A stretch of DNA of 64,000 nt, taken from Natrinema salifodinae (GTDB lineage Archaea > Halobacteriota > Halobacteria > Halobacteriales > Natrialbaceae). The notes beneath the pieces were generated by a model, which saw only the letters and a list, made by a program, of their open reading frames with translations, did not search any database and was not told the DNA's origin. A program made the position numbers and the translations under genes. The DNA lies in contig NZ_FOIS01000004.1 of the NCBI RefSeq assembly GCF_900110455.1, positions 372,001 to 436,000 of the forward strand, read 5' to 3'. Within the stretch, counting starts at the first letter, position 1; the number at the start of each line of letters is the position of its first letter. Of this stretch, positions 5,310 to 53,698 are shown in pieces.

Positions 5310-6305
5310 TCACTGAATCGCCGTCGCGTCGGTCTCGTCGTCCGCCATCGGCGGGAGGTCATCGACGAGGACGACCGCGTCCCCGTCGAGGACCACCGTG
5401 CCGTCACCGTCCAGAACCGTCGTCTCGATGCGGTACTTGTCCCGGCCGAGATCCTCGACAACCTCGCAGACGGCGGTGGCTCGGTCGCCGATCGGGAGCG
5501 GCGCCCGGAAACTGCTCTCCTGCGAGAGGTAGATCGTCAGCCCCGGAAGCCGCGCCAGCGCCGCGCTAAGCAGCCCGTTCGCGAGCACGCCGTGGACGAT
5601 CCGCTCGCCGAACCTGGTCTCGGCGGCGTAGGCCGCGTCGAGGTGCAGCCGGTTTGTGTCGCCGGTCACGTCCGCGAAGGCTGCGACGTCGTCCTCGGTG
5701 AGCGGTTTGGAGAACCTGGCGACGTCGCCGACCGCGACGGACGACTTATCAGCGCCGCGGTACTCGAAGTCCCAGTCGTCGCGCTCGTACTGGGTATCGG
5801 TCCGTACCTGACGACGGGGTCGTTCCTGACGCGAGTCGACGGTGCGGTGAACGAGTTGCGGGACGTAGTAGGAGAGTTCGATCGTCGTGACGATGCCGAC
5901 CAGGTCGCCCGCGCTGTCCGTGCTGCCCGCACCATCGTCCCCGTCGGCCGCGCCGGACCGAGTTTCCGTTCTTGCGCCGTCGCGTGCGACGACCGGCAGG
6001 TGTTCGATGTCCGACGACCGCAGCAGTTCGACGGCGTCGACGAGAGACGCGGTCGACTCGATCGTCGTCAGCGGAGACGACATGACCGCCGACAGCTCGA
6101 TATGGCCGAGGTCCCGCCGTTTGCAGAGGTGCGTCGCGAAGTCGCCCTCGGTGACGATGCCGACGGGGTTGCCGTTTCGAGCGACGACGACCGAACTGAC
6201 GCCCTCGTCGCGCATCAGCGTCGCCGCCTCGGTTGCGGTCGCATCGGGCGGGGCGGTGACGACGTCCGCGACCATGATCTCGGTGACGGGTATCGTGTCG
6301 TGCAT
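5310..6305 (-). CDS. CBS-domain pair fused to MaoC-like (hot-dog) dehydratase
   Basis: A 331-residue two-module protein. Residues about 7-150 form two CBS motifs (VVVARNGNPVGIVTEGDFA, then HLPVVARDG and LVGIVTTIEL), a fold that binds adenosyl ligands such as AMP, ATP or SAM. Residues about 195-305 are a MaoC/PaaZ-type hot-dog domain with the hydratase motif DVTGDTNRLHLD (catalytic Asp and His) and GERIVHGVLANGL. MaoC domains hydrate enoyl-CoA, so the fusion suggests a hydratase or thioesterase gated by adenylate or SAM. The linker is acidic and Ser/Gly-rich. Substrate is unknown. It is convergent with the lipoprotein gene. Confidence 0.88.
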   Translation of the reverse strand: MHDTIPVTEIMVADVVTAPPDATATEAATLMRDEGVSSVVVARNGNPVGIVTEGDFATHLCKRRDLGHIELSAVMSSPLTTIESTASLVDAVELLRSSDIEHLPVVARDGARTETRSGAADGDDGAGSTDSAGDLVGIVTTIELSYYVPQLVHRTVDSRQERPRRQVRTDTQYERDDWDFEYRGADKSSVAVGDVARFSKPLTEDDVAAFADVTGDTNRLHLDAAYAAETRFGERIVHGVLANGLLSAALARLPGLTIYLSQESSFRAPLPIGDRATAVCEVVEDLGRDKYRIETTVLDGDGTVVLDGDAVVLVDDLPPMADDETDATAIQ

Positions 6306-6377
6306 TTGACTTCCCTACGCGACCGATCCCTATCAGTATCGGTGGGCCGATTCAGCAGACTGGACTGTCAGCCGCAC

Positions 6378-6557
6378 TCACGGATCTTCGTACCGGTTCT
6401 CGTCAGTGTGGTCGCTCAGACGAGCGAGTTCGCGTTCCGCGTCTCTGGACCGACGGTGCTGTGGCGAGACGATCGGCTCACCGGAGCCCTCGATCCGCTC
6501 GTCGGGGTCGTCCACGGCAATCCATTCCCGAAGCCGCGAAATGAGCGTTCGGATCAT
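6378..6557 (-). CDS. Small hypothetical protein (59 aa)
   Basis: A 59-codon ORF starting MIRTLISRLREWIAVDDPDE and ending with a charged tail (HTDENRYEDP). It is highly charged with an N-terminal amphipathic helix; no known motif. It occupies an otherwise empty gap between the CBS-MaoC gene and the UPF0201 gene and uses haloarchaeal codon preferences and an acidic composition, which argues that it is coding. No promoter was clearly identified. The function is unknown. Confidence 0.5.
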   Translation of the reverse strand: MIRTLISRLREWIAVDDPDERIEGSGEPIVSPQHRRSRDAERELARLSDHTDENRYEDP

Positions 6558-6673
6558 GCTAGTTCAATCGGCCCACTGCTTGAAAAGTATACTCCCGATG
6601 GGTTTCGAACAGCGCGCCGGTAGCCGTCGCGACGGTTCTCGTGGACTACAGCGGGGAAAGAATCGACACCGAG

Positions 6674-7087
6674 TTAGGCGTCGACCGGCTGCCCGTCTTC
6701 GGTCGGCGGCGCGATGTGGTCAATGTAACCCTCGACGCTCGGTTCGTCGACGCGCACGCGGACGCTGATCTCGCCGAGTTCGTCGGGCTCGCCAACCGAG
6801 AAGTTCACCCGGTCGACGAACGCGGCCTGCTTCTTCAGCGCGAAGGAGAAGGTATCGCCCTCGCGGTTCGCGAAGAACTCGCCGCGGGCGGTATCGAGGA
6901 TCTCCTGGCGGTGGAGTAGCTCCGAGAAGTGATCCATCGCGTGCGCTTCGCCGCGGACCTCGCCGAACTGCTCTTCGACGTCGGCGTTGGGAAAGATGTT
7001 AGCCACGGCGTCGATCACGCGGCTCGTGACCTCGGTATCGTAGACCGGTGCCGTGATCTCGACGTCGACACGGTAGATATCGCTCAT
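6674..7087 (-). CDS. UPF0201 family (coaE operon protein-like) RNA-binding-type protein
   Basis: A 137-residue protein starting MSDIYRVDVEITAPVYDTE. It has the archaeal UPF0201 pattern: an N-terminal beta strand, the VANIFPNADVEE segment, then the HFSELLHRQEILDTARGEF block. The family resembles ribosomal protein L5-like RNA-binding folds; the biochemical role is unknown. Its ATG overlaps the stop of the upstream UPF0200 kinase by four bases (ATGA, 7084-7087), so the two are translationally coupled, an arrangement also seen in other archaea and which gave the family its coaE-operon nickname. Confidence 0.85.
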   Translation of the reverse strand: MSDIYRVDVEITAPVYDTEVTSRVIDAVANIFPNADVEEQFGEVRGEAHAMDHFSELLHRQEILDTARGEFFANREGDTFSFALKKQAAFVDRVNFSVGEPDELGEISVRVRVDEPSVEGYIDHIAPPTEDGQPVDA

Positions 7088-7692
7088 GTGTCGGCTTCCG
7101 CTTCGGGGCGTTTCCCTTCGTCGGTTCCGTTCTCCTCGCCGCTCGCGCCCTCCGCTCGAATGATCGATCGAATCCGCTCGTGGAACGCCTCGAGCGAGTC
7201 GGTGTTCTCGACGACGACGTCGGCCCGGTCCATCGCGTCGTCCATCCCGAAGCCGCGTTCGCGCTCGTCGCGAGCGGCCAGGCCCTCGCCGCCGTCGGCC
7301 ATGTTGGCGTCCCGGCCGCGGGCCTCGATCCGCTCGGCGCGAACCTCGAAGGGGGCCTCGATGCTGACCAGCGTGAATGCGTCGTCGAAGGCTTCCTCGA
7401 AGACGTCGACCTCGACGTCCGAGCGGATGCCGTCGACCAGCACCGTCTCGTGGTCTTCGAGGCGGTCCCTGAGCATCGGGAGCGACCGCTCGGCGATCGC
7501 CGCCGGGCCGTGCTCGTCGCGCAGTGCCTGCGCGACCTTGCCGTGGTCCTTCGCGGGATCGAGCCCGCGGTCGGTCGTCTCTTGGCGGACGACGTCGCCC
7601 ATGGTAACCACCGGGATCCCGTCCTCGCGTGCGACGGTGGCGGCCTCGCCCTTGCCGCTCCCGGGGAGACCCACCGTTCCGATGACGTGCAT
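7084..7692 (-). CDS. UPF0200 family P-loop nucleotide kinase-like protein
   Basis: A 202-residue P-loop NTPase with Walker A GLPGSGKGEAA near residue 8, a DVVRQE segment and the DGIRSDVEVDVF block typical of the archaeal UPF0200 family, which resembles dephospho-CoA kinase and adenylate kinases. The last 20 residues are an acidic tail. It probably phosphorylates a nucleotide-like small molecule, but the substrate is not established; a link to coenzyme A is only suggested by the family context. The promoter has a TATA-like GTTTATGC (about 7717-7724), 29 nt before the ATG. Confidence 0.87.
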   Translation of the reverse strand: MHVIGTVGLPGSGKGEAATVAREDGIPVVTMGDVVRQETTDRGLDPAKDHGKVAQALRDEHGPAAIAERSLPMLRDRLEDHETVLVDGIRSDVEVDVFEEAFDDAFTLVSIEAPFEVRAERIEARGRDANMADGGEGLAARDERERGFGMDDAMDRADVVVENTDSLEAFHERIRSIIRAEGASGEENGTDEGKRPEAEADT

Positions 7693-46389: not shown

Positions 46390-46599
46390 ATGGCAAAGAC
46401 CAAAACGCCTATGGTCTGCCCGGAGTGCGACGGCAGATTACGGAGGGAGGGTACCGAAATGATCTGTGAGGAATGCGGGCTCGTCTCCGCCGAAGACGCG
46501 ATCGATCGCGGCCCCGAATGGCGATCGTTCGAGGACGAGGACACCGACCGGCGACGGACCGGCGCGCCGCTTATTCCATCAATCAGTGACCACTGGTGA
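46390..46599 (+). pseudogene. Transcription factor B, N-terminal fragment (gene interrupted)
   Basis: Sixty-one codons of a TFIIB-like general transcription factor: a zinc ribbon (CPECDGRLRR and CEECGLVS) and the B-reader segment DEDTDRRRTGAPL. The frame then runs into inserted DNA and stops nine codons later (IPSISDHW). The matching C-terminal half is at 49403-50127. Joining the halves at the repeated CGCCGCT restores RRRTGAPLTRSRHDRGLSTEIG, the family's continuous sequence. As it stands the protein has a zinc ribbon but no cyclin repeats, so it cannot act as TFB; a truncated regulator is an alternative. Confidence 0.9.
46565..46571 (+). repeat. attL: CGCCGCT direct repeat
   Basis: Left copy of the seven-base core, inside the Gly-Ala-Pro-Leu codons of TFB. 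The same seven bases recur at 49403-49409, exactly 2,838 bp on, a multiple of three. Confidence 0.75.
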
Positions 46600-46939
46600 A
46601 TCGATTATCCCCGCCCCGTCTTGCGGTTCCCCTCGCAACTAGGGTGATTGCGAAGTGTATCCGTTCACGGTATGACCGCGGGGATACGCCATCATGGACT
46701 TTGCAGTCATCAAATGAATATCCCTAGACAAAAATGTTCTGGCTGCTGCTAACGTTTGGGCTTAATTCAGGACACGGCCTTGCCTTGCGCGTACGTACGC
46801 GAAACATGGGGCGGAGTAATACTATAATGAAATTCCTATGAGCGTAATGTGTTCCATGCTCCTGTTACATAGAAGAGTATCAGTATAATGGGCCGGGATC
46901 ACGGGCGCGTGTACGGCTGCCCGTTGCTGCAATTTGCAA
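46600..46939. other. Left arm of the element, no gene recognised
   Basis: Mostly non-coding. It contains a 14-bp perfect palindrome CGCGTACGTACGCG (46788-46801), which continues for two more pairs after one mismatch, and a loose inverted repeat GTATCC/GGATAC near 46654-46684. It could be an operator, an accessory recombination site or an origin. Confidence 0.5.
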
Positions 46940-47083
46940 CTACGCTACGACAACTTCTTCCCACTTTGAGTTACCGCAGGCTGGACAGTCCTGTCTTGGA
47001 CTGGAAACTCTACTGGATTTTTGCCCAACAACAACATGGCAGTCCTTACAACGGTACAGATTGCACGATCGTGTTTTGACCAT
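46940..47083 (-). CDS. Small zinc-finger protein of the element (47 aa)
   Basis: MVKTRSCNLYRCKDCHVVVGQKS... followed by DCPACGNSKWEEVVVA and a stop. Two CxxC pairs (CKDC at residues 12-15, CPAC at 33-36) plus Cys7 make a compact zinc ribbon like other haloarchaeal zinc-finger micro-proteins. An excellent TATA box TTTTATTAAAA (minus strand, about 47103-47113) lies about 25 nt before the ATG at 47083, predicting a leaderless transcript. Likely a DNA- or protein-binding regulator of the element; this is inference. Confidence 0.7.
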   Translation of the reverse strand: MVKTRSCNLYRCKDCHVVVGQKSSRVSSPRQDCPACGNSKWEEVVVA

Positions 47084-47514
47084 GAGTGTCGATAGTGATG
47101 GGTTTTTAATAAAATTTCCGTAACACTATGCATAGTTTGCTCAATAATCATCAGTCAAGTTGTCTCTTTACCAGCATCACCACTAGGCCCTGAGTGCCGT
47201 TCTAAGCGATATTTTGATTGAACCATCCTACCCCCCTACTTTTCGCTAGGAATCGATCTGAGGCCCATATATCGGCCTCAAATGATAATTGGCAGTTATC
47301 TTCTGATGTAGTGTCTAAGACGGCTGACGATTGAGGCGTTTTAGCGGCAAAACCCTCTGGTTGAACGAACGAGTTTACACGGAAACTCGGTCCCCATCAA
47401 GATTAGAACCGTGATGGGCCCCATATTTGGGAGCAGAGGGAGGTGGATTAACACTCAGTTTGATCGGTTGCTTTATCCGACATTTACTTCAATGTCGAAT
47501 ACTATTCTCATAAC
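47084..47514. other. 431-bp AT-rich spacer inside the element
   Basis: Holds the zinc-finger promoter at its left edge and an inverted repeat GAGGCC/GGCCTC around an AT core (47260-47279). No gene seen. The right end leads into the membrane-protein gene. Confidence 0.5.
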
Positions 47515-48168
47515 ATGAATAAAGATATAGTCAATTCTAGCCAGCGTACACTAGAGATACCATCTAATCTCTTACAGAAGGTACAACGTGATATTGATCT
47601 TTGGTCGTTTGTCGCTGGTGCAATTTTAATGCTTTCTCTCCTGGCTATAGGAGTAGAGATTGGTGGGAAGACAGAGAGTTCGATATTTCAGGAGTATTAT
47701 TCCCCAATATTCGTTACATTATTTATTAGTGTATCATCTGGTCATTATCTTGGGTTAGCATTTACAACAGATTCAGATAACCTTACCTCTGCATATATTG
47801 GTGCTTTTGCTGTTCTTTGGTTTGCTTCATTAACTGTTACTGAGCTTTCCCCTCTAAGTTTTGCCTTAGCTGGAATTACATTTGGTATTGTTTTAGCTTA
47901 CCAGCGTGGTATTGTTGCTAATCACAAACGGATTAAGAAGCTCATGGAGATCTTTGGTAAAGGAATTGCTCCTTCGGGGATCTTTCTCATGGCGTTTATA
48001 GAATACCTCCTACCTTTTGTCCTTTCACTCGATATTGTGTCAGAAGTTACTTCATATGCGAACAACAACCCAGCTGTATTTGTGCCAATATTGGTTATCC
48101 TCCTTATTATTGAGAGAACTATAAAACATGCTACTGAAAATCAGACAGAGAACAAAAATATACCCTAA
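47515..48168 (+). CDS. Element-encoded multi-pass membrane protein
   Basis: A 217-residue, AT-rich gene. An N-terminal cytoplasmic region with a coiled-coil tendency (residues 1-30) precedes about six hydrophobic segments (approximately 30-50, 62-80, 91-108, 111-128, 152-172, 185-204). Charged loops are KHKR-like (NHKRIKKLMEIFGKG) and the tail is hydrophilic. No family is recognised. It is unusually low in acidic residues for a haloarchaeal protein. Possible roles are superinfection exclusion, signalling or an anchor; none is shown by the sequence. Confidence 0.75.
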   Translation: MNKDIVNSSQRTLEIPSNLLQKVQRDIDLWSFVAGAILMLSLLAIGVEIGGKTESSIFQEYYSPIFVTLFISVSSGHYLGLAFTTDSDNLTSAYIGAFAVLWFASLTVTELSPLSFALAGITFGIVLAYQRGIVANHKRIKKLMEIFGKGIAPSGIFLMAFIEYLLPFVLSLDIVSEVTSYANNNPAVFVPILVILLIIERTIKHATENQTENKNIP

Positions 48169-48182
48169 GTAAGTCTTATTCC

Positions 48183-49286
48183 TTAGATATTGTCAAGATA
48201 TCCTCTACGCCGTTCCATCTTTCCTTCCTCATCTTCCGCGTCGTAATGCTCATCAATTACATCAATAGAGACGTTCATCCGATCACTTACCAGTGGCTTG
48301 GGGAAGTCGTTGTTTAGATGGTGGGTGATTGCCCCGCGACGGAAGGGATGAGCGCTTACGCTATCAGGGCACTGTGAGGCCTTATCATAGTTTGTTGCTG
48401 CTTCACAGTTCTCTGGATCTTTATTATGCGGACATCCCCCTGTTACAACGCAAGGGCGTGTGTATCGATAGGTGGTTCGTCGTACTGTGACCTTCCCAAT
48501 ACGTCCATTGGTTGTAGTTATCAGAGGTTCACGTCCGTATTCATCAGTCACGTCCTTACGGTTGTGTTTGATATAGTCATCTAACACTTCCATTTCTTCT
48601 TCTTTTAAGGCAATCATCCGCTCTCCATCTTCTTTGTTTTTCAGAGGGGTATCTGTCTCAGGTCGGTGACTCAATTCGAGAGCTGCCTTTCGTTCATGGT
48701 AGTCATCTAGATCAAGAGCGCGAAGGCTCCCTGTGCGAACCCCTGTTTTCCAGAGAATCAATATTACCACATGGTCCCTAGTGGCATACTCAAACTTATT
48801 CATAAAATTAATAATTTCTTCTGCACGATCAGCGTCAATGGTTACCTCACTTCTATTTTCTCCTTTTTCGAGAGAAGGCAAGATCACCTGTTCATAAAGA
48901 TGAGGGTGTACACCGTCAATTCGTCCACAATATTCCAGGAATTGCCTAATGATAGACATCTGACTTCGCAAAGTTGTCTTATTCAGATCACCGTCCTTTT
49001 TTCTCCAATGTTTGTAATCCTCAATATCCCTTCCATTCAGGGTATTCAGATTATCAACACCGTTATTGTTACACCAGCGAATAAAATGTCGAAGTTTGTA
49101 TTCTCGGGCTTGGATAGTACTATCGGCTTTGTCATCCTCAAGTGATCGTAGGTATCGTTCCTTCGCATCTTCGGGTGTCAAGGGTTGCAGGTCCGTGTCT
49201 CGCATTGTTGGCTCCTGCAAAGCCCGTGCGACGCGTTGATTCGCGGCTTCTTCTTTTGCGGGGTGGGGAATCCCTGTGGCCGACAT
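48183..49286 (-). CDS. Tyrosine recombinase (integrase) of the element
   Basis: A 367-residue phage-integrase-family recombinase. A SAM-like N-terminal DNA-binding domain (about 38-125) precedes the catalytic domain with Arg184 (TGVRTGSL), His313-x-x-Arg316 (HPFRRG), a further histidine at 347 or nearby and the nucleophile Tyr348 (DEHYDA). Four cysteines (279, 285, 294, 306) between the catalytic blocks may bind zinc, as in other haloarchaeal integrases. It ends 14 nt from the convergent membrane protein gene. Its promoter TTTATTTAATAATC is flanked by an 11-bp inverted repeat. Confidence 0.94.
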   Translation of the reverse strand: MSATGIPHPAKEEAANQRVARALQEPTMRDTDLQPLTPEDAKERYLRSLEDDKADSTIQAREYKLRHFIRWCNNNGVDNLNTLNGRDIEDYKHWRKKDGDLNKTTLRSQMSIIRQFLEYCGRIDGVHPHLYEQVILPSLEKGENRSEVTIDADRAEEIINFMNKFEYATRDHVVILILWKTGVRTGSLRALDLDDYHERKAALELSHRPETDTPLKNKEDGERMIALKEEEMEVLDDYIKHNRKDVTDEYGREPLITTTNGRIGKVTVRRTTYRYTRPCVVTGGCPHNKDPENCEAATNYDKASQCPDSVSAHPFRRGAITHHLNNDFPKPLVSDRMNVSIDVIDEHYDAEDEEGKMERRRGYLDNI

Positions 49287-49292
49287 TGCTAC

Positions 49293-49330
49293 AAGTTAGT
49301 TTACGTTCTGATTATTAAATAAACTAACTT
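49293..49330 (-). promoter_or_regulatory. Inverted-repeat operator around the integrase TATA box
   Basis: AAGTTAGTTTA (49293-49303) and TAAACTAACTT (49320-49330) are exact reverse complements separated by 16 bp. The TATA-like element (about 49309-49320) and the transcription start lie between and beside them, so a protein bound to both halves would block TBP and TFB. ATG is at 49286. Confidence 0.7.
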
Positions 49331-49368
49331 ACCAGATACATACCGTTTACTTACCATTTTGTTACCAG
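49329..49368. repeat. TTACCAG/T direct repeats near attR
   Basis: TTACCAG (49329-49335), TTACCAT (49351-49357) and TTACCAG (49362-49368) occur in the same orientation just inside the right end. Such short repeats are typical arm-type integrase sites. Confidence 0.45.
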
Positions 49369-50127
49369 GTGTGGCAATATTTTCCTGTATACTGTATCTG
49401 TTCGCCGCTGACCCGCTCGCGACACGATCGGGGACTCTCGACGGAGATCGGTTACGGCTCCGGCGCCGATGCGGGATACCAGGCGCGACTAACCGGGCGG
49501 AAGCGGCGACAGATCGCGCGTCTACGCCGCGAACACAACCGCGCGCGGATCTCCTCGAAAGCGGAGCGAAATCAGGTGTACGGATTCGCCGAGATCAGAC
49601 GCGTCACCGCGTTGCTCTCGCTGCCCGACGACGTCAGGGACCAGGCCTGCGCGCTCTTCGAGTCCGCCCAGTCCGAAGGCCTCTTTCAGGGCCGATCGCT
49701 CGAAGGGTTCGCCGCCGCCGCGATCTACGCGATCTGTCGAACGCGGTCGATCGCTCGAACGGTCGACGAAATCGCCGACATCGCACGCGCCGACGGCGAC
49801 GAACTCGGCGTCGCCTACGACGCCTTGAACCGCGATCTCGGCCTCCCGACGGGACCGATCGAGCCGACGCAGTATCTGCCGCGGTACGCGTCGCAACTCG
49901 AGGTCGGAACCGACGTCGAACGCCGCGCCCGCGAACACGTCACTGCGCTACTCGAGGCGGGCAAAATCGGCGGTCGCAACCCGAGTGGCGTCGCCGCAGC
50001 CTGTCTCTACAAGGCCGCCGGCGAACGCGAAGAGTGGCCGACGGTAACCCAGACCAGGGCGGCCGAGGTCGCCGACGTGGCGGCGGTGACGATTCGGTCG
50101 ACCGTTACGGCCATCGAAGAGCTCTAG
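49369..50127 (+). pseudogene. Transcription factor B, C-terminal fragment (gene interrupted)
   Basis: From codon 14 (after the GTG at 49369) the frame reads TRSRHDRGLSTEIG then the TFB linker and two cyclin repeats (approximately LRREHNRARISSKAERNQV... ALFESAQSEGLFQGRSLEGFAAAAIYAICR and YLPRYASQLEVGTDVERRAREHVTALL...). Only the zinc ribbon and reader are missing; they are on the other side of the element at 46390. The rejoined gene would have 299 codons. A short element-derived N terminus (MWQYFPVYCICSP) could allow translation of the core domain alone. Confidence 0.9.
49403..49409 (+). repeat. attR: CGCCGCT direct repeat
   Basis: Right copy of the core repeat, followed directly by GACCCGCTCGCGACACG, which encodes the host TFB continuation. 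Confidence 0.75.
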
Positions 50128-50179: not shown

Positions 50180-53100
50180 TCACGTCGTCCGGAGCGTGTC
50201 CGTACTCGGCTCGTAGACCTCGCCTTTCTGTTTGAGTTTATCGATCTCGTGTTCGGCCTTAGACTGGTCCATGCCGACCTCCTCGGCCCGTTCGAGGACG
50301 ATGTCGACCGGCGCGCCGTCGTCGTACTCCTCCTCGATGTCGCTGATGAGCTGTTTGAGGTTCTTGATCCGATCGCGCTGGGACTTCGAGGTCCCGGCCT
50401 CGACGATGTCTGCGTCGAACTCGCCGGTTTCGGGGTCGACACCGATGTCCTGCAGACAGGAGCGAACGATCTCGACGGACTGCTCGGCGTCACGCTGTTC
50501 GACCGTATCCGAGAGTCGAACGCGGGCGCTGGCCTCCGCCAGGCGAACCAGCGCCTCGAGTTTCCGTGCGGTGACGGGAACGGCGGCGTCTTCGTCGGTC
50601 CCCCTCGATCGCAGGTCGACGTAGAAGTCTCGGATCGTCTCGCGGGCCGCCTCGGTCATTCGGGGGTGGCAGTTCTGTTTAGCGTAGGCGATGTACTTGC
50701 GCAGGAGTTCCGCGTCGATTTTGGGGTCGACCTGATCGGTCATCTCGTCGATCTCGTCGGCGCTGACCTCGAGGGACGTCATTTTCTCGCGCTGAGTGGT
50801 CAGCTCGCCCGCGTAGTTGGTGGTGAGGATGTGTTCCGCGAGATTGCGGTCTTTCTCCTCGTCGGGTTGGTCGGTGACCGTGAAGATGAGGTCGAACCGC
50901 GAGATGAGCGCCGGTTCGAGGTCGATCTGCTCGCCGATGGGCTCGTACTGATCGAAGCGGCCGTACTTGGGGTTTGCCGCGCCCAGCAGCGAACAGCGGG
51001 ACTTGAGGGTCGCGTTGATGCCGGCCTTGGAGACCGAGATCTTCTGCTGTTCTAAGGCCTCGTGCATGGCGCTCCTGTCCTCCGAACGCATTTTGTCTAG
51101 CTCGTCGACCGCAGCGATCCCCTGATCGGCGAGGACGAGCGCGCCGGCTTCGAGGGTCCACTGCTGGCCGTCGCCGAAGTCATCGCGGACGGCGGCGGCG
51201 GTGAGACCGGCCGAACTGCTACCCTTACCGGAGGTATAGACCGAACGGGGGGCGATGTTCTGGATGTATCCCAGCATCTGGGAGTTGTGCGAGATGACGC
51301 CGTTCGAGATGTAGTTGTGCGTTCCCTCAATCTCGAGGTCGTACACCCAGTCGTAGTCGGGTTCGACTGTTTCGATTGATTCGATGTGTTCCCAGCAAAC
51401 GTCACCTTCGACAAGTTGCTCGAGAGCGGCAATGCTCGTTTTTACGGATCCACCGTCGGCTAAAATGCCTTCGTCGCTCTGACTATCCTCAGTTGCCAGT
51501 GCATTTTTGAATGCTGCAACGACGTTCTGGAGGTTTTCTCGACTCGGATTTCTCGACCCTCGCTCGTAGTGTTGATACGTCGACCGTGGGAGTCCACAGT
51601 CAGCCTGTGTGAGCGATAGCGACTCCCGAATCTGCCGAAGCACCGACCCGATAGCGGGAACGATATCGAGATTGGTATTTCCTTCTGTATCAGCATATTG
51701 TTCGGCAGCTTGTTGTTTTCGCTGTGTTACGAACCCGATCTGCGTGACATACTTCTCGAATTCGCTGCCGCTTATTCTGAGCCGATAACTACCGGTATTT
51801 CGTTCGTGAAGTTGCGACTGGATTCCGACAGAGAGCAGTAGCGTTCTAATGTTTTTGAGCAGTTCATGGCTCATCGAAGCGACGGTTATCTCCCGCTGCG
51901 ACGCTGAAACGTGGCCTTCTCCTTCGATGAACGCTTTGAGGAACGCCGACCTCGTCGAGTCAGTGGCTTCGAAAATGTCATCCGGAACACATTGTTCGTC
52001 GGATGGCTGAAGGATACACGGCTCGAGTTCTTCGAGGAAGCTTACGAACTCACCTGTCGAACAGAGTAGTTCACGGGCTTCTTTGCCCTCGTGAGGATCC
52101 CGTTCCGTCGTATTGAGACCCAGTTCCTCGAGAGCGTTCGTTGCATCGATGAGAACGTCTCTATCGTTATTCGTAATCGAAACAAAGCCGGTGTTGTCGT
52201 CTCGCTGCTCTACGTACCCTTCTGCAATGATGTATCCGATTACCCGTGCTAACGACGGCGTCCACTCGTCCGGTAGATCAAGCTGTACTGCGTTTCGGGA
52301 CTTGGATCTTCGGACATCAACGTCGAGGACATCATTTCCCTCTGTTGTATAGCTTCGAGGTGCAGCGACGAACTGTCCCTCGGCGAGGTTATCTGCCGCA
52401 GTCGGTGTACACTTCCCGCCCTGTTGGACGAATAATGGATGCGACGGCGTCACCTCGAGTTCCCGTCCGCTCGAGGTCCGAATCCGATACATCCGGTCGG
52501 GTGCTTCGCGTTTCCAGACCTTCGTTGCCTGCTGTGCAGCGATCGATCCGTCATCTTGCAGAGACGGCACTGCGAGATCGACCTCGTCCCACCAGCCGTC
52601 GTCGATCGGTTTCGGATCCGTGAGATTCGACTCGACGAGTTCCCGGATCGGGACCGTTCGCCCGTCCGCGAGTGTGACCTTTGTATCGCCGCGGACGCAT
52701 TTACCGGTACCGGGGTCCCCGATCAGGAGCATGTGCAGGTCGCCGCGAATTCGCGAGCCGTCGGGGAGTTGCTTCGTGACCCCCGAGAACAACTGGAGGA
52801 TCATCGCGAGTTTCTCCTGCTCGTAGCCGTAGATGGAGGGCGCGACGGATCCGATCATCTTCTCGTAGATGTCCTCGCTGGAGGAGAGCCGGACGATCTC
52901 CTCTTTGTCCTCGTCGGTGATGTTCATGTCCTCGAACTGCTCTTCCTCGATGTCGACCGACATGCCCTCCATGTAGAAATCGAACACGGGCGACTTCTCC
53001 TGCCCGTCGGTCTGCTGTTCGAGCCGCAAGACGCCGGTCGCGGAGACGTGGTCGCCAGGCGTCACCTCGCCGGTGATGTCGTCTTCGACGTGGACGTCAA

Positions 53101-53698
53101 GCGACTGGGGCGTCTCCCCGCCGCGGAGCCCTTCGGGGCTCTCCTGAATGCGGAGTTTCTGGGCGTCGACGAACTCGGACTGATCGAAGTTGACGCGGAA
53201 AGGGCCCTGGCGTTCACAGCCCTGGCACTCGTGGGGTTCCTGAAAGTCGCCGCTGGACTGGGGGACGCGGGTGAGGGTGCCACAGAGCTGGCACTCGAAG
53301 GCGGCCTCCTCGATCTTCGGGCGGACGTCGGTCGCCTTGCGGACGATGCCGTGCACCTGGACGAGGGAGTTCATGTCTCGGGCCCGGATTTCGCGGATCT
53401 CGGGCGACTCCGTCTCGGGGAGGTTGTGGACGCGGACGTGCGCCTGGCCGAGGCTGACGTCGATCGGGAGGTCGTAGAGCCGCAGCGCCTCCTCGGCGTA
53501 GCGCTGGAGCTGTTCGGGTTGGTTGATGAGATCGTCCGCGAGGTCGGGATCGAACCGGTAGAGGTCCTGCCAGTCGACGTGCAGCGACCGCTGCTCGTTG
53601 GGATACCGCTGCGCAAGCTGCTTGATGTCGTTGTCGTAGTAGTTGCGGAAGAACTGCTCGAAAGAGTCGACGAGTTCCGAATTGCCCGCTTGCGCCAT
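50180..53698 (-). CDS. mcm: Replicative DNA helicase MCM with an intein
   Basis: A 1,172-codon gene whose mature product after protein splicing is 700 residues. The N-terminal domain (1-290) includes an OB fold and a zinc site (CQLCGTLTR and CQGCERQ). The AAA+ helicase starts MLLIGDPGTGK (Walker A, residues 327-333), interrupted by an intein immediately after the lysine; the rest resumes SQMLGYIQNIAP. Walker B is VDELDKMR and the sensor and arginine-finger blocks follow (SRFDLIF). A C-terminal winged helix ends the protein. TATA-like TTTATA (53722-53727) is 27 nt before the ATG. Confidence 0.98.
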   Translation of the reverse strand: MAQAGNSELVDSFEQFFRNYYDNDIKQLAQRYPNEQRSLHVDWQDLYRFDPDLADDLINQPEQLQRYAEEALRLYDLPIDVSLGQAHVRVHNLPETESPEIREIRARDMNSLVQVHGIVRKATDVRPKIEEAAFECQLCGTLTRVPQSSGDFQEPHECQGCERQGPFRVNFDQSEFVDAQKLRIQESPEGLRGGETPQSLDVHVEDDITGEVTPGDHVSATGVLRLEQQTDGQEKSPVFDFYMEGMSVDIEEEQFEDMNITDEDKEEIVRLSSSEDIYEKMIGSVAPSIYGYEQEKLAMILQLFSGVTKQLPDGSRIRGDLHMLLIGDPGTGKCVRGDTKVTLADGRTVPIRELVESNLTDPKPIDDGWWDEVDLAVPSLQDDGSIAAQQATKVWKREAPDRMYRIRTSSGRELEVTPSHPLFVQQGGKCTPTAADNLAEGQFVAAPRSYTTEGNDVLDVDVRRSKSRNAVQLDLPDEWTPSLARVIGYIIAEGYVEQRDDNTGFVSITNNDRDVLIDATNALEELGLNTTERDPHEGKEARELLCSTGEFVSFLEELEPCILQPSDEQCVPDDIFEATDSTRSAFLKAFIEGEGHVSASQREITVASMSHELLKNIRTLLLSVGIQSQLHERNTGSYRLRISGSEFEKYVTQIGFVTQRKQQAAEQYADTEGNTNLDIVPAIGSVLRQIRESLSLTQADCGLPRSTYQHYERGSRNPSRENLQNVVAAFKNALATEDSQSDEGILADGGSVKTSIAALEQLVEGDVCWEHIESIETVEPDYDWVYDLEIEGTHNYISNGVISHNSQMLGYIQNIAPRSVYTSGKGSSSAGLTAAAVRDDFGDGQQWTLEAGALVLADQGIAAVDELDKMRSEDRSAMHEALEQQKISVSKAGINATLKSRCSLLGAANPKYGRFDQYEPIGEQIDLEPALISRFDLIFTVTDQPDEEKDRNLAEHILTTNYAGELTTQREKMTSLEVSADEIDEMTDQVDPKIDAELLRKYIAYAKQNCHPRMTEAARETIRDFYVDLRSRGTDEDAAVPVTARKLEALVRLAEASARVRLSDTVEQRDAEQSVEIVRSCLQDIGVDPETGEFDADIVEAGTSKSQRDRIKNLKQLISDIEEEYDDGAPVDIVLERAEEVGMDQSKAEHEIDKLKQKGEVYEPSTDTLRTT
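51284..52699 (-). other. MCM intein with LAGLIDADG-type endonuclease and HTH-like segment
   Basis: A 472-residue class 1 intein between Lys333 and Ser of the extein. It begins CVRGDTKVTLADG (Cys1, block A), has TPSHPLFVQ (block B, catalytic Thr-x-x-His), and ends YDLEIEGTHNYISNGVISHN (blocks F and G, terminal His-Asn) before Ser. The endonuclease region holds two diverged dodecapeptides (RVIGYIIAEGYV and FLKAFIEGEGHV). Unusual is LRQIRESLSLTQADCGLPRSTYQHYERG, which reads like an XRE-type helix-turn-helix. Lying in the Walker A motif it must splice for MCM to work. Confidence 0.95.

Follow-up and report, generated by a model that had tools for sequence, protein, structure and literature searches.

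Few cases of integrase silencing are known in archaeal integrating elements; they include F55 of SSV1 and the PhiH1-like repressors. F55 represses the SSV1 integrase operon (PMC8371274) and binds sites over the BRE and the start (PMC5569661). Together with SvtR and AvtR it belongs to the RHH regulators that exclude TBP/TFB, and regulators of the RHH type can occupy distal sites and from there extend to the promoter (PMC5569661). TrmB-type repressors, which exclude TBP/TFB as well, have their dyads at the BRE/TATA (PMC4158304). Haloarchaeal promoters carry TTWT-like TATA boxes, and leaderless transcripts make up 72% of the protein-coding transcripts of H. volcanii (PMC4983044). The SNJ2-type integrase family is defined by at least 30% identity to the SNJ2 integrase over 60% of the protein, and many of its members lack orf2 and orf3 (PMC8371274). 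Pleolipoviruses carry, close to int, a gene for a PhiH1-like or winged-helix regulator.

Here we describe an SNJ2-type element found in a window of 64 kb, the whole stretch of DNA analysed, together with the repeats at its predicted integrase promoter. Such silencing would have a compact model in a short composite site lying on the integrase promoter of a TFB-inactivating haloarchaeal element.

Results

The mobile element is 2,838 bp long and runs from one copy of the core CGCCGCT to the next (Table 1). As the first-pass annotation had proposed, it cuts a TFB gene: the split falls at this 7-bp core, after codon 61. Relatives of the genus that were aligned here carry an intact orthologous TFB. 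The same genome retains at least four further TFB-like genes, and the feedback circuit earlier imagined between the severed TFB and the integrase promoter is therefore unsupported. The frame of the severed C-terminal part is open back into the element to 49312 and has a possible GTG at 49369; a TFB lacking the zinc ribbon could thus be made. The adjoining MCM helicase gene (50180-53698) appears by eye to hold an intein, a long insert that follows ...GDPGTGK and ends ...NYISNGVISHN ahead of SQMLGYIQN.

Table 1. Features of the element and its surroundings, with insertion sites of related elements.
Feature	Position	Strand	Remarks
TFB N-terminal part (zinc ribbon)	46390-46599	+	final 8 residues and stop encoded by the element
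Attachment core CGCCGCT, left junction	46565-46571	+	within TFB gene
FmdB-like zinc-ribbon protein of the element, 47 aa	46940-47083	-	
Hydrophobic protein, 217 aa	47515-48168	+	probably membrane; no family
Tyrosine integrase, 367 aa, SNJ2-type	48183-49286	-	about 42% identity to SNJ2 and HHPV4 integrases
Inverted-repeat arm 2	49293-49303		AAGTTAGTTTA on +; -17 to -7 from integrase ATG
Predicted TATA region of integrase promoter	49311-49323	-	TTTATTTAATAAT; haloarchaeal consensus, PMC4983044
Inverted-repeat arm 1	49320-49330		TAAACTAACTT on +; -44 to -34 from ATG; covers expected BRE
Four direct repeats, exact 11-bp period	49328-49367	-	TGGTAA-like
Attachment core CGCCGCT, right junction	49403-49409	+	
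TFB C-terminal part (cyclin folds)	49410-50127	+	
TFB insertion sites of the clade	window 46565-49409; L033 5305 and 10661; L034 6610; L050 18180		

The integrase shares 41.7% identity over 92% with that of SNJ2, within the SNJ2-type family definition, and its domains PF02899 (Phage_int_SAM) and PF00589 (Phage_integrase) both scored above cut-off. A short attachment site at a tRNA 3' end describes SNJ2 and is not required for SNJ2-type membership; in this element, as in all three cases found, the core lies instead in TFB coding sequence. The int gene is a single gene with a predicted promoter to itself, outside any operon with accessory orf2 and orf3. No match to the whole element was found at the DNA level in plasmid and phage collections, and a search of viral contigs for the integrase or its alignment returned none.

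The better-supported general point is that TFB genes serve this SNJ2-type integrase clade as attachment sites in three genera or more. Each TFB gene is cut between the zinc ribbon and the cyclin folds, and the TFB-targeting elements have the ends TTCGCCGCT and GGCGCGCCGCTTAT in common. The elements in G236 (L033) and G245 (L034, L050), whose integrases are 78% and 62% identical to that of the window, resemble it in that each is inserted into a TFB gene at the core CGCCGCT, but they differ in cargo and in the segment between attachment site and int. A third relative, L035 (QS_4_62_28), encodes a 76% identical integrase (6057-7136) with an in-frame TGA and no adjoining TFB, and probably represents a copy in decay at a different site. 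The stretch from core to integrase is mutually conserved in L033, L034 and L035, whereas the window element carries a different segment there. In these three relatives a small ORF, MQFEHQ..YYQ.SP..GYGIAPLSTP, overlaps the integrase start (L033 5339-5452; same place in L034 and L035). It matched no family, is missing from the window element and is possibly an accessory or directionality factor.

The exact 11-bp inverted repeat that had been claimed at the integrase promoter was confirmed on both strands, with a 16-nt spacer between the arms. Its span had been given as 49286-49330; the upper end is correct, but 49286, which falls outside the repeat, is the first letter of the integrase ATG. Read along the integrase strand, positions -37 to -25 from the ATG are occupied by the AT run TTTATTTAATAAT. 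The arms had been said to bracket the TATA box, one of them at the transcription start. They do flank the AT run, but arm 1 takes in 4 bp at its upstream end, and arm 2 falls between the predicted TATA and the start, immediately upstream of the leaderless start position. The promoter is predicted from sequence: given the spacing of the AT run and the leaderless habit of haloarchaea, transcription should begin on the ATG or immediately ahead of it, and the inverted repeat would thus lie in promoter DNA, outside the RNA. A second AT run is found at -97 to -90. The repeat is thereby a symmetric site overlapping the BRE/TATA of a predicted promoter, as in promoter-occluding operators.

In dinucleotide shuffles of the 118-bp intergenic region, a perfect arm of at least 11 within 40 nt arose with a probability of about 0.001. 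Across the window there are seven perfect repeats with arms of at least 11 and spacers up to 40 nt, against 2.4 expected, so that window-wide the dyad alone is suggestive and not overwhelming; the other six are all GC-rich. The 38-bp dyad site occurs once in its own genome and was not found, at up to 3 mismatches, in 390 other genomes of the class. A host regulon site was rejected, given no further copy in the own genome at 3 mismatches. A conserved operator was likewise rejected: neither dyad nor array is present in the three closest relatives (integrases 62-78% identical), making the site private to the window element. Recurrence at co-regulated promoters or conservation was thus seen nowhere in the own genome, the relatives or the 390 genomes. 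Any function is without phylogenetic support, and the site has to be of recent origin or acquired.

Two sets of possible counterparts of the dyad were set aside. The sole exact viral match of the arms (L037) is an unrelated hairpin in an AT-rich phage intergenic region. Recurrent repeats with arm centres about 28 bp apart upstream of other SNJ2-type integrases (L009, L010, L015, L020, L031) were not accepted as analogues either: each forms a hairpin whose centre is GC-rich and which adjoins a tRNA 3' end, at a distance from any TATA.

Between the attachment core and the inverted repeat lies an array of direct repeats that is absent from the first-pass annotation. Its units on the minus strand are TGGTAAC (49367-49361), TGGTAAG (49356-49350), CGGTATG (49345-49339) and TGGTAAG (49334-49328), the last sharing 3 bp with arm 1. 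An equally good array, with all periods of 8 to 22 allowed, was seen in less than 0.1% of shuffles of the 118-bp intergenic region. At up to 3 mismatches, no further copy turned up in the same genome or in 124 others of the family. Judged from sequence, array and dyad look like one composite protein-binding site.

Near-perfect 11-bp tandem arrays on TGGTAA also occur in unrelated viral contigs (L061-L069), and that of L066 adjoins a tRNA-like 3' end. Among ten viral contigs with TGGTAA arrays, only one has a tyrosine integrase gene, which lies about 2.4 kb from the array. With a single such contig, and its integrase not adjoining the array, these arrays were rejected as parallels.

The three recognised proteins of the element (integrase, zinc ribbon and 217-aa protein) gave no match to an HTH or RHH family, nor did a scan of the three reveal a cognate regulator. 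Both binders named earlier are unsupported. Homologues of the zinc-ribbon protein (68% and 62%) were found in two genomes (L054 1501-1644, L055 1501-1641), both without the dyad and at loci without a window-type integrase, which leaves this protein unsupported as repressor. By eye, the neighbours there are, instead of integrases, a methyltransferase-like gene in L054 and a metallopeptidase-like gene in L055; these loci are possibly defence-type islands. The integrase as binder is likewise unsupported: the motif is missing from the 62-78% identical relatives that share the core, and the integrase gave no match to an arm-type DNA-binding domain. Since the element's proteins have no HTH or RHH match, since zinc-ribbon homologues and same-core integrases occur without the motif, and since known SNJ2-type viruses carry their own regulator near int, the binder would most likely be a resident DNA-binding protein, of the host or otherwise, rather than the zinc ribbon or the integrase.

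Discussion

The anatomy of the site is clear: the predicted TATA/BRE has a perfect arm on either side, with some overlap, and the array lies toward the attachment core. We propose, with a probability of about 0.5, that the dyad, probably with the array, serves the integrase promoter as a regulatory site acting at the level of DNA. In its favour are the low local probability of the dyad, its placement over the BRE/TATA at leaderless spacing and an independent array (<0.001). Against it are the lack of conservation, the lack of an HTH or RHH protein among the element's three recognised genes, the seven repeats of the window and the distance between arm centres, which at 27 bp (about 2.6 turns) is wider than the usual span of one simple dimer.

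The same lack of conservation, in a dyad unique to one element, would be expected if it were a chance or decaying sequence without function in an AT-rich, fast-changing intergenic region. The occurrence of seven such repeats in the window, against 2.4 expected, agrees with this, as does the fact that the arms have no exact viral match beyond an unrelated phage hairpin. We consider this explanation somewhat unlikely, because the local probability is about 0.001, the dyad sits on a promoter, and an array significant in its own right touches it. Rather less probable still is that array and dyad are accessory sites for recombination, either arm-type sites of the integrase or sites for a directionality factor, with promoter shut-off as a by-product. 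In lambdoid systems, integrase-arm and Xis sites typically take the form of phased direct repeats next to att sites, and both repeats here lie within the 116 bp from the core to the integrase ATG. However, relatives with the same core have neither array nor dyad, no copies of the repeats were found at the left end of the element where they were sought, and the integrase matched no arm-binding domain. The rarity and distance of tyrosine integrases in viral contigs with similar arrays also speak against a recombination role.

An RNA hairpin, by which the repeat in a transcript from further upstream would hide the integrase start codon or stop transcription, appears improbable. The second AT run could serve such a transcript, and 66 nt of the minus strand fold at -13 kcal/mol (z = -2.0). 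This fold is, however, just mildly better than shuffles, and with the best TATA transcription would begin on the ATG or beside it, so that the repeat would stay out of the transcript. Least credible is a bidirectional switch, in which the repeat-bracketed AT core would also start the severed TFB core on the opposite strand; if true, it would couple element state, TFB dosage and integrase expression.

For the regulatory site, the proposed mechanism is that a dimeric or oligomerising regulator would load onto array and arms and, once bound, would exclude TBP/TFB from the integrase promoter. The integrase would then be off in the integrated state, a chain in which we infer the binding, the repression and the identity of the regulator. 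Steric repression had been put forward before, and the geometry does fit BRE/TATA occlusion, an established archaeal mode: by this analogy repression of the integrase promoter is plausible, even though the binders named are unsupported. The stronger wording that the integrase is tightly repressed goes beyond what the DNA supports. The putative site would be of an ordinary kind in an interesting TFB-targeting element.

Comparison with described systems places the locus among several partial likenesses. It shares its integrase family with the SNJ2 and HHPV4 modules, in which int lies near a regulator gene, but it has no recognised PhiH1-like or winged-helix regulator, and no TATA-flanking repeat like its dyad was found in the SNJ2 and HRPV9 intergenics. 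With TrmB-type operators it shares perfect palindromic arms over the BRE/TATA of a basal archaeal promoter. The TrmB dyad TACT-N3-AGTA and the Tgr dyad TATCAC-N5-GTGATA are both compact, whereas the window dyad has longer arms, a wider spacer and no known cognate regulator. The operators of F55 are bound by a virus-encoded RHH protein at ATAGATAG repeats; no RHH gene was found among the three proteins of the window element, and motif and spacing are different. The likeness to SSV1, whose integrase operon is repressed in lysogeny, is in arrangement: in both archaeal integrating elements repeats lie next to or over the BRE and start of early promoters, and direct tandem repeats, here four of 11 bp, adjoin the promoter.
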